A DNA stretch of 7,679 nucleotides, taken from contig JADFON010000074.1 in assembly GCA_022562855.1 (NCBI GenBank), positions 1-7,679 of the forward strand, given 5' to 3'. A program made the position numbers and the translations under genes. The stretch comes from Candidatus Zhuqueibacterota bacterium. Lineage in GTDB: Bacteria > SM23-31. Under the pieces are notes generated by a model, which was given only the letters and a program-made list of their open reading frames with translations, searched no databases and was not told the DNA's origin. Below are positions 4,030-7,679 of the stretch, piece by piece; the first letter of the stretch is position 1; the number at the start of each line of letters is the position of its first letter.

Positions 4030-4049
4030 AAGTGGAAATACTACCACTC
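4030..4049 (-). terminator. Weak hairpin with T-rich tail at the fapA stop codon
   Basis: On the minus strand, GAGTGG (4049-4044) can pair with CCACTT (4035-4030): five Watson-Crick pairs plus one G-T wobble around an 8-base loop that contains the fapA TAG stop. A T-rich stretch follows (TTGATTTTTGTTTTTC). The stem is short, so it would be at best a partial terminator, reducing read-through from fapA into the desulfhydrase gene. Confidence 0.25.
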
Positions 4050-5513
4050 GATTAGATTAAGGCGGCTTTTATATTCCTTAATATTATATTTAGGGGAAAA
4101 CGAAAATTTCCCCTTAATAATTGTCATCAAACCGCCCTGAGACGGTTCCATAATGTTTATTTGCTCATTCCCGACTTGAATTTTACTGCTGGGTTCTACT
4201 ATCGATCCGCTTGAGTTATCTCTCGAGAAGCCGTTGCGGATTAATAAGAACGGATTCTCTGTCGGAAGCATTTTCTCGAGGGCTTTTTCTTTTTTTTCCT
4301 GGAGCGATTTTATTTTTTCTTTATAGTAGTCGAACTTTTCTTTAATTTCTTTGATTTGAGGCAACTCTTTTGCAATCAGCGGGTGTTTAGGATTCTTTTT
4401 ACTGAGTTCTGCCAGGTATGCCATCCTTTTTTCATTGTTTCGCCAAACCTTCTTCAATTGCTCAAACGGTTCATCCATATCATTTAGTTCTTTTATACAC
4501 CTGTCATGGATAACTTTCGCCTCGTAATCGATTCCAACCATTATTTTGTTTTGACCGTTTACATAATCTGTCCAGATGCCTTCTCCCGCTATCACTGAAC
4601 TGCCCTGGATTGCATACGCCTTCACCTGGGTCGCATAGACCTGTGCCCCGTTGCTGATTTCACGGGTGACTCTGATACCTTTTGCATGTACGCGGCGTGA
4701 CCCGTTTATGTATCCAACGTTAATCTTTGATGCATTAATGGGTAAATCGCTTGTACCGACAATTCCCTGGGCAATATCAAGTTCTTCCGCCACAATTTCA
4801 CAATCTTCGACACAACCCCCGACAGTAATCTTGTGTGCCTTCACCCAGTATCCCGACTTTATGTCTTTTGAAATAGCCACTTCAACTTTATACGTGTCCG
4901 GAATCTCAATAGAACCTGTACCGGGTCCGACGTCGTCATAAATTCTAAACACTGGTTCGACATTTAATTTTGTTGCCCTGGGGATGACAAATCCGTCCAT
5001 TGTTGCGATGAGAACACTCCCATCGACTTCGGTATTGATTCCGCCCATTTCATCAAGATCAAAATCCTTCCCCCAAATCCCCGGAATTTCCTTTCCATAA
5101 ATGTTTATTCCGGGATTTCCTTGCGTAGGCGATGTCTTTACCGCAATTTCGTCATCCTTGTTTACGACCACTATCCATCCTTCACGCGGCGATAAATAAT
5201 CGACGTCCCCTGCCTCATTAGATATGGGCAATACTTCCTCGCGCTTTTTTGGTCTTTTCTGAACATGAACTTCTGCCCTCTTCCCGACGGTAGGCGGCTT
5301 ACTCTGTGCAATTACAACATCTTTAGACGGTTCTTCTTTTTCCGATAATTTAGCGATCGCTTCATTGTTAATTCCGTAGACTATTTGTTTTTCCTCAAGA
5401 ATAGCCATTATATCGTCTGCACTCACAGGTTTTTGCTTAATATGGTGTTGATCCTCGAAAGCAGTGCAATATACAGTGAGATTATTACTTGAAATGTCGA
5501 TTTTCAGCTTCAT
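4041..5513 (-). CDS. FapA / DUF342 family protein
   Basis: A cytoplasmic protein of 490 residues resembling the FapA (DUF342) family, one member of which was named for flagellar assembly in Vibrio. Many homologues outside flagellar loci have no known function. In order: a small N-terminal domain (1-60), a low-complexity Lys/Glu/Pro linker (60-100), the DUF342 core with REGWIVVV (110-117) and the G-x-PG-x-x-x-x-GK element (132-141), and a right-handed beta-helix-like stretch (about 205-330) with repeating I-x-V-G and A-x-x-I-x-V patterns. A charged coiled coil (about 335-416) and a short C-terminal beta region follow. The ATG at 5513 has an AAGGA box ten bases upstream, the only plausible ribosome site among the minus-strand genes. 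The TTG at 5537 would overlap that box and is rejected. No flagellar gene is nearby, so a flagellar role should not be assumed. It is the first gene of the minus-strand series. Confidence 0.85.
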   Translation of the reverse strand: MKLKIDISSNNLTVYCTAFEDQHHIKQKPVSADDIMAILEEKQIVYGINNEAIAKLSEKEEPSKDVVIAQSKPPTVGKRAEVHVQKRPKKREEVLPISNEAGDVDYLSPREGWIVVVNKDDEIAVKTSPTQGNPGINIYGKEIPGIWGKDFDLDEMGGINTEVDGSVLIATMDGFVIPRATKLNVEPVFRIYDDVGPGTGSIEIPDTYKVEVAISKDIKSGYWVKAHKITVGGCVEDCEIVAEELDIAQGIVGTSDLPINASKINVGYINGSRRVHAKGIRVTREISNGAQVYATQVKAYAIQGSSVIAGEGIWTDYVNGQNKIMVGIDYEAKVIHDRCIKELNDMDEPFEQLKKVWRNNEKRMAYLAELSKKNPKHPLIAKELPQIKEIKEKFDYYKEKIKSLQEKKEKALEKMLPTENPFLLIRNGFSRDNSSGSIVEPSSKIQVGNEQINIMEPSQGGLMTIIKGKFSFSPKYNIKEYKSRLNLIEW

Positions 5514-5553
5514 TATTGGAAAATCCTTGCGGTGCAATAAATTTCAAAATCCC

Positions 5554-5680: not shown

Positions 5681-5707
5681 ATGTGCCGTCTCGCTTGTGC
5701 ATACTGA
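5681..5707 (+). other. Possible leader ORF, nine codons including stop (MCRLACAY)
   Basis: ATG at 5681 opens eight sense codons (M-C-R-L-A-C-A-Y) ending at TGA 5705-5707. A strong GGAGGG box lies at 5664-5669, 11 bases before the start. It sits 82 bases upstream of the amidotransferase-like gene, on the same strand but in another frame. The first four residues equal the usual start of class II amidotransferases, whereas the gene downstream begins MSRL. It may be a translated leader peptide, a remnant of an older 5' end, or chance. The promoter candidates nearest the main gene lie downstream of this ORF, so it would need its own upstream promoter. Confidence 0.2.
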
Positions 5708-5789: not shown

Positions 5790-6644
5790 ATGAGCAGATT
5801 GTTTGGACTGTACAGCGAAGAACCGGTAAAGCTTTCATGTATACAGGCAAAGGAAATCCCGTCCTGGCGCAACCTTGGTGAGAATTCAGGAAATCCCGTT
5901 GAAGCAGATGGCTGGGGAATTGGTTTTTACAAAAACAACGGGTCTTTTCTCTTTAAAAAGGCATCCAAAAGCTCGAAGTCGCAACGAATTACCAATATTA
6001 CTGAGGTGATATCTTCCCCCATAATTGTCAGCCACGTCAGACACGCCACGGTTGGAGAAAGAAAAGAAGCAAACACCCATCCATTCCGCTGGGGGCTTTG
6101 GTTGTTTGCGCATTACGGGAAAATAAATCATTTCAGGAGAATTCGGTCAAAGATCATGAGAAAGCTCCCGTCCGCATACAAAAAACAAATCGAAGGCAAT
6201 ACGGACAGTGAGTTCTGTTTTTATTTGTTTTTGTCCCATCTTAAAAAAGAGGGCGCCATCAAAAAAGGCGATATTGATTTGGACGCAGCTATTAAAGGCT
6301 TGAAGAATTTTCGCAACGATATAGAAGAATTCCAAAGAGAAGCTGATGTTACAGAAATGTCGGAATTAAATTTTTTAATTTCCAACGGGTCTTACCTGAT
6401 AGCCTCACGGTGCGGCAGCCCTCTTTATTATTTGTGCAGCGACAAGAGCAATCCTCAGGATACTGTCTTTTTTTCTTCCGAAACCTGGCTCCAGTACGAG
6501 CTAATCGATTTCGACCCTGAAAAAAAACTTGTCACGGTATCGTCAGAAAAATTAACTGATTCTACTAAGTGGAGAGTTGTTCCCGATAATCATATTCTAA
6601 CCATTAATTCTGCTCAGGAAATTGAAATCATACCCTGGAAGTAA
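5790..6644 (+). CDS. YafJ-like class II glutamine amidotransferase homologue with altered active site
   Basis: A cytoplasmic protein of 284 residues with the Ntn-hydrolase glutaminase fold, the YafJ/GATase_4 type. Family members use an N-terminal Cys, exposed by Met removal, to hydrolyse glutamine to glutamate and ammonia. Family landmarks present: RLFGL after the start, ADGWGIGFY (39-47), SHVRHAT with Arg84 (81-87), ENTHPF-like ANTHPF (94-99), FAHYG (106-110), NTDSE (137-141), and a C-terminal LTxxxxW-type segment (LTDSTKW) shared with YafJ. Two catalytic positions differ: residue 2 is Ser (codon AGC) instead of Cys, and the oxyanion-hole Asn of HNG is Tyr109. An in-frame stop at 5772-5774 rules out an upstream start that would supply the Cys. 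Family membership is clear; glutaminase activity is doubtful, and an N-terminal Ser nucleophile is conceivable. The start has an A/T-rich leader without Shine-Dalgarno. It is transcribed away from fapA and followed after 92 bases by the repeat protein. Confidence 0.88.
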   Translation: MSRLFGLYSEEPVKLSCIQAKEIPSWRNLGENSGNPVEADGWGIGFYKNNGSFLFKKASKSSKSQRITNITEVISSPIIVSHVRHATVGERKEANTHPFRWGLWLFAHYGKINHFRRIRSKIMRKLPSAYKKQIEGNTDSEFCFYLFLSHLKKEGAIKKGDIDLDAAIKGLKNFRNDIEEFQREADVTEMSELNFLISNGSYLIASRCGSPLYYLCSDKSNPQDTVFFSSETWLQYELIDFDPEKKLVTVSSEKLTDSTKWRVVPDNHILTINSAQEIEIIPWK

Positions 6645-6736: not shown

Positions 6737-7679
6737 ATGGAAGCGATTGAAAATACGAACGTAAAGAATACGATATTCGACCTAATCAAGAAATGCGAAT
6801 TTGAAAAGGCAGAAGCCTTAGAGAGTGAAAATTCTATTTCTTCGATGGAGATAAGCAATATCGCATCGAAAGCATACACTGAACTAATTTCAAAGGAAAA
6901 ATTCGAAGAAGCAGTACTTATAACGGAACAATTTCATCTTCCTTCTGAAAAAAAGATCGAGGCTGTTTCCGGACAATTCCGAATTTTCAACAAGAGAAAA
7001 GAATATGATAAAGCCATAGAATGGGGAAAGAATTATAAACTGCCTGATACGGAAATCAACAATATTTCCGTTAAAGCGTTTAAGGAGGCGTTAAACGCTA
7101 AAGACGTTGAAAAGGCTTTAGAAATTAAAAAAAAATATAATATACCTCATAATACGATAGTGGGATTAGCAAGGGATTGGTTTAATGCTTACATAGACCA
7201 GGGTAAAAATCTCGAGGCTCTTTTGCTTGGACAGATATTTGATATATCACGAAAACGGACACTGACGTCCGGTATCTGGGCTTACCAAAAATTACTAAAT
7301 GAACAGGATATAACGAAATTTATGGCGCTGGAACAGAAATACTATATTTTGACCGATAGAGATCTTGACCAGATTGACCGGAAAGAGTGGGATAATTTTG
7401 CAAAAGTGTTTATTGACGCAATAATAAAGGGAATGATCTCCAGTAACCGTATAGACCAGCTTGCAAAAATTGTTGAATCTTTAAAAATACTCGTCTACCG
7501 GGACAATAACCCTTATATATCGGTGTTGATTTCACAGGCAGCCGATGTTGTAACCATTGAGCATAAACTTCTCATGGAATCGGCTCAATATTCGGATGCT
7601 TTCAAATTAATCGAGAGTTTTCATCTGCTGTCGGAAAACATATCTTCCGATGCAAAATCATCGGTGATAGAACATGCTG
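6737..7679 (+). CDS. 34-residue helical-repeat (TPR-like) protein, partial
   Basis: I read this frame by hand: ATG at 6737, open to the right edge (314 codons visible, no stop). I do not recognise the protein. It consists of helical repeats with a strict 34-residue period near the N-terminus: units at 22-55, 56-89, 90-123 and 124-158 (35 residues). They share [FYV]-[ED]-x-A at the start, an aromatic residue at position 11 (three of four units), [LI]-P at 13-14 in the last three, and a second helix closing in a charged turn. Less regular units follow, and the pattern returns at Y285 (YSDAFKLIESFHL). Length and Ala placement resemble TPR solenoids, which bind proteins. There is no signal peptide or membrane segment, and the protein is rich in Lys and Glu. 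It lies 92 bases after the amidotransferase homologue on the same strand with no convincing terminator between, so the two may be co-transcribed. No Shine-Dalgarno sequence is seen. Confidence 0.8.
   Translation, partial: MEAIENTNVKNTIFDLIKKCEFEKAEALESENSISSMEISNIASKAYTELISKEKFEEAVLITEQFHLPSEKKIEAVSGQFRIFNKRKEYDKAIEWGKNYKLPDTEINNISVKAFKEALNAKDVEKALEIKKKYNIPHNTIVGLARDWFNAYIDQGKNLEALLLGQIFDISRKRTLTSGIWAYQKLLNEQDITKFMALEQKYYILTDRDLDQIDRKEWDNFAKVFIDAIIKGMISSNRIDQLAKIVESLKILVYRDNNPYISVLISQAADVVTIEHKLLMESAQYSDAFKLIESFHLLSENISSDAKSSVIEHA

Follow-up and report, generated by a model that had tools for sequence, protein, structure and literature searches.

A conserved and apparently non-catalytic variant of the class II amidotransferase family in Candidatus Zhuqueibacterota

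The gene at positions 5790–6644 on the forward strand of the window (the whole analysed stretch of DNA, 7,679 nucleotides) encodes a protein of 284 amino acids that is apparently a conserved, non-catalytic variant within a known family. In class II amidotransferases the N-terminal Cys is the nucleophile and an Asn-Gly pair serves the oxyanion. The window protein has Ser at the first of these positions and Tyr in place of the Asn. Since Cys and Asn are both missing, ordinary glutaminase activity is not expected, and the residues present suggest that the protein very probably lacks it. Retention for a non-catalytic role is likely as well. Taken as a whole, the reading that we favour, with somewhat less assurance, is that of a class II amidotransferase homologue without glutaminase catalysis that is retained to bind a ligand or to act as a scaffold. 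That the window protein specifically binds a ligand is a more tentative proposal, for which the chances appear slightly less than even.

The gene and its catalytic positions

The gene was assigned from its open reading frame, a Pfam match and a structural model. Its product begins with MSRLFGLYSEEP and matches Pfam GATase_4 (PF13230) with 102.9 bits (gathering cut-off 23), over positions 1–248 of the 272 in the profile. Upstream of the ATG at 5790 only K-I-E-F-N can be read in frame, preceded by a stop, so that this ATG is the sole plausible start. The AlphaFold2 model, built with 36 sequences, shows the Ntn (alpha-beta-beta-alpha) fold with a pLDDT of 90.4 and a pTM of 0.90.

Codon 2 (5793–5795), at the position of the canonical nucleophile Cys, is AGC and encodes Ser. 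Within FAHYG (residues 106–110, 6105–6119), which occupies the place of the canonical HNG, the oxyanion-hole Asn is replaced by Tyr109 (TAC, 6114–6116) and Gly110 is kept. The first-pass annotation had noticed both replacements, which the reading frame and codons bear out, and had described the rest of the fold signature as intact. This description holds for DGWG (residues 40–43, 5907–5918), VRHAT (residues 83–87, 6036–6050, also intact in its longer form HVRHAT), NTHPF (residues 95–99, 6072–6086) and TDSE (residues 138–141, 6201–6212), all of them present on the forward strand in the 284-aa frame. However, the range given there, 5790–6130, covers residues 1–113 only, so TDSE is real but lies outside it. 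Arg84, in VRHAT, aligns to the conserved Arg of canonical members, and Asp139, in TDSE, is kept; the window protein thus has both glutamine-anchoring residues, as assigned by sequence alignment.

Apart from a GlmS-type match, no canonical GATase_4 paralogue was found in the genome from which the window comes (contig C80), a 2.5 Mb draft that is ~80% complete. A tiny ORF, MCRLACAY-stop (5681–5707, forward strand), with a GGAGGG stretch before it, lies upstream of the gene, ~80 bases away and in a different frame. It resembles the canonical amidotransferase N-terminus (MCRL), which may be chance, and no further amidotransferase relic was seen in the three forward frames.

Relatives, replaced residues and selection

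One orthologue is present in each of the six genomes of the window's own phylum that were examined. Asn109 is gone in all six and Cys2 in five, which agrees with the earlier suggestion of a divergent branch and not a one-off. Residues 2 and 109 are Ser and Tyr in the window protein, Cys and Leu in L003, Val and Gln in L085 (which has a GTG start with AGGAGA ahead), and Ser and Ser in L084, L086 and L087, where Ser2 of the last two depends on a GTG start. The closest relative is L003 (61% identity to the window protein; the G001 protein, of 'bacterium SM23_31'), followed by L084 (48%), L085 (44%) and L086 (37%). The idea that Ser2 and Tyr109 co-vary as a pair defining a clade did not survive this comparison: among the compared proteins Tyr109 is seen in the window protein alone, the closest relative combines Cys2 with Leu109, and the common trait is 'not Asn'. 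An N-terminal Ser is not conserved among orthologues either (S, C, S, V, S, S in the phylum, and S, G, A or C elsewhere). Arg84 and Asp139 are present in all six phylum proteins.

Similar proteins with Ser or Ala at position 2 had been suspected in Deltaproteobacteria-like genomes, and Myxococcota proteins with Ser, Ala or Gly there do exist. A profile search gave matches in 159 of 195 genomes of a Myxococcota-type phylum, often two in each; the label is taken from the Myxococcales-titled contigs L005, L007, L009 and L011, which fall in the same clade. The top-scoring copies read MSVVLAALTSDP...FAHQG or MGALAAILQSDP...FAHDG, and the second copies sampled are canonical, with MCRLFGFRS or MCRLFAQHA and HNG. 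The clade comprises 45 dereplicated proteins with S, G, A or C at position 2 and Q, T, D, V, E, I and others at position 109, and a second phylum of Myxococcota type has S, A or G at position 2 and E, T or L at position 109. A small third group, family f131 (L166, L168 and L171), shows Cys2 with Ser109, an unclear start with His109, and Ser2 with Thr109, and may have lost the two residues independently. Its S2/T109 member has lost the Arg84 position too. Some non-canonical members combine Cys2 with Val, Thr or Ile at position 109 and two combine Ser2 with Asn109; since both combinations exist, the losses did not always occur in the same order.

In a dereplicated set of 54 non-canonical proteins, Ser occupies position 2 in 24, Cys in nine, Gly in eight, Ala in eight and Val in one (four undetermined). 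The residue is small throughout the family, as would suit either removal of Met or packing within the former active site. At position 109, 15 different residues occur (Q11, T10, D8, V5, S4 and others), with Asn in two proteins. Gly110 is kept in 54/54, Asp139 in 51/54 and Arg84 in 41/54, the last being absent in many Myxococcaceae-type members. Arg100 (6087–6089 in the window) and Pro127, neither of which played a part in grouping the proteins, do not vary within the two main non-catalytic clades (51/51); of the 31 canonical proteins, 8 have Arg100. These 31 were chosen by Cys2 and Asn109, so their zero variability at both positions is circular; no such circularity affects the figures for the non-canonical set.

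In the tree, whose alignment kept the trait columns of positions 2 and 109, the window's own phylum is supported with 100/99 and the Myxococcota-type clade with 100/100, and of the 23 rows that fall in none of the three groups, 22 carry C2/N109. At least six changes are needed for Cys/not-Cys and four for Asn/not-Asn. Joining the phylum, the Myxococcota-type proteins and f131 in one clade costs 4.1 log-likelihood units (AU p 0.37), and such a clade is neither rejected nor established. By the NG86 method, dN/dS is 0.06–0.21 in nine closely related pairs from the Myxococcota-type set, and L086/L087 of the window's phylum give 0.10; these values come from related genes, as synonymous sites of the window gene itself are saturated. 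The low ratios and the frame kept open across six genera argue for constraint without decay, as the first-pass annotation had proposed, and, judged from these comparisons, the gene family is under purifying selection.

Gene neighbourhood and possible role

On the reverse strand of the window, 1–2924 carries genes which we take to be MraY-like and MurG-like. A HEAT-repeat gene (1036–1764) lies between them, and the same order is seen in L106. The divergent upstream neighbour of the amidotransferase homologue encodes a FapA family protein (4041–5537, reverse strand), and a divergent FapA-family gene is found in four of the six phylum genomes (the window's, G002, G004 and G005). Downstream, a co-directional ORF with no Pfam match (6737–7679, forward strand) is cut by the contig end. 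This ORF is conserved on the same strand in three phylum genomes (the window's, G001 and G002; L003:2171-3784 and L106:7511-9127) and has ~537 aa where complete; in G001/L003 the next genes encode a PilZ-domain protein and then an M48 peptidase, with the same families and order in G002. In 13 Myxococcota-type loci an Hsp70 gene divergently adjoins the family gene, and at the one locus scanned (L148:5305-9234) a DnaJ-domain gene comes next after Hsp70. Signalling genes occur near the family gene at nine loci. Gene calls at these loci come from a simple ORF picker. No neighbour is common to different phyla, FapA, Hsp70 and the signalling genes being lineage-specific, and function is therefore not fixed by context. 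Two papers on Myxococcus Hsp70 genes (PMC8265645, PMC4319316) mention no amidotransferase.

We propose that the protein still holds a ligand which it no longer cuts. The counterparts of Arg84 and Asp139 in canonical enzymes hold the alpha-carboxylate and alpha-amino groups of glutamine, and all six proteins of the window's phylum retain both residues. A ligand resembling glutamine or a gamma-glutamyl compound would most likely still be bound, uncut, and its occupancy might be passed on to a partner protein, so that the protein would act as a sensor or scaffold. This non-cutting role is preferred because Arg and Asp are kept in the phylum and because, according to PDB titles, two mutants without the Cys, EgtC C2A and GlmS C1A, gave crystals with substrate or glutamate, so that loss of the Cys need not abolish ligand binding. 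A role as a ligand sensor, which the first-pass annotation had raised, is possible for the window protein. As a role conserved across the whole set, however, ligand binding is excluded by the loss of Arg84 in many Myxococcaceae-type members. Weak or altered hydrolysis is also possible in some members, as the nearest relative keeps Cys2 and Ser serves other Ntn hydrolases. A broader and rather doubtful extension would see here a widespread, stand-alone pseudo-amidotransferase family of the SM23_31-type phylum and the Myxococcota-type phyla, acting as a glutamine or gamma-glutamyl sensor or a chaperone-linked regulator, whose own invariant residues, Arg100 and Pro127, would point to a novel site for interaction or ligand binding.

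The main rival to non-cutting ligand binding is a ligand-free scaffold, that is, a purely structural or protein-interaction module in which Arg84 and Asp139 are kept for folding. The persistence of the protein in the many Myxococcaceae-type members without Arg84, the newly invariant Arg100 and Pro127, and the frequent position of the Myxococcota gene divergently beside an Hsp70 gene would all suit such a module, but the presence of Arg84 and Asp139 in every protein of the window's phylum speaks against it, and we regard it as unlikely. Less likely still is an active Ntn hydrolase in which Ser2 would attack another amide or ester, with an oxyanion hole formed by Gly110 and another group. Ser nucleophiles do occur in other Ntn hydrolases, position 2 is occupied by Ser more often than by any other residue (24 of the 50 determined), and the invariably small residue there is compatible with Met removal. 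However, orthologues and near relatives carry Val, Gly or Ala at position 2, which makes Ser improbable as a family-wide replacement nucleophile, position 109 is almost free, and in the first set of ten proteins no Ser/Thr/Cys column is invariant except T96 and T138, which belong to motifs that canonical members share. The earlier suggestion of a different amidase or peptidase using Ser2 is not supported, for the same reasons. Cys17 was considered as a substitute nucleophile and rejected: it is present in 40 of the 54 non-canonical proteins, yet three of the six phylum members have Tyr there.

An ordinary amidotransferase altered by a local mutation, a sequencing error or a misplaced start can practically be dismissed. 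It is true that Ser2 (AGC versus TGC) and Tyr109 (TAC versus AAC) are each one base away from the canonical codon. But the relatives come from separate assemblies and do not mostly carry Cys2 and Asn109, the pattern that the first-pass annotation had associated with such an error: Asn109 is missing from all six proteins of the phylum and Cys2 from five. No other in-frame start is available. Sequencing error and a wrong start are both rejected on these grounds.

Family models label these proteins as 'glutamine amidotransferase', yet the residues needed for that reaction are missing in almost all of the group. Should the proteins be dead enzymes that persist in a binding or regulatory role, they would form a graded natural series (C2/non-N109, S2/N109, S2/non-N109, and G2 or A2). 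Such a series would be useful for studying the passage from an Ntn hydrolase to a non-enzyme, with the Myxococcota copies residing in genetically workable hosts.

Comparison with known systems

A literature search returned no paper on a class II pseudo-amidotransferase of this type, which does not prove that none exists. By fold, the model is matched by 1te5 (Z 26.4), 3mdn (24.7), EgtC (23.7), PurF (22.8) and the GlmS glutaminase domain (22.3), and more weakly by beta-lactam synthetase (Z 12) and carbapenam synthetase (Z 9.3). The top match, 1te5, is a YafJ-type predicted glutamine amidotransferase from Pseudomonas of the same Pfam family; unlike the window protein, it retains Met-Cys and HNG. 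EgtC, the Ntn hydrolase of the ergothioneine pathway (4zfj/4zfk/4zfl), has the same fold, with DGWG, VR.AT and PF aligned, but it possesses the catalytic Cys2 and HNG and the window protein neither. Membership of the EgtC equivalog (TIGR03442) was considered and rejected: the window protein scores 124.3 bits against a cut-off of 218.65, and a search for the EgtD family (PF10017) found no gene in the ~80% complete genome.

The glutaminase domains of GlmS and PurF share the Ntn fold with the window protein (Z about 22), and the ligand-anchoring Arg/Asp positions have their equivalents in them. These are active domains fused to a synthase, whereas the window protein is a stand-alone domain without Cys or Asn. 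The N-terminal domains of beta-lactam and carbapenam synthetases (1jgt, 1q15), also found by fold, are class II amidotransferase-fold domains that are not known to have a working glutaminase site. They are, however, parts of asparagine-synthetase-like enzymes, while the window protein stands alone, within GATase_4.
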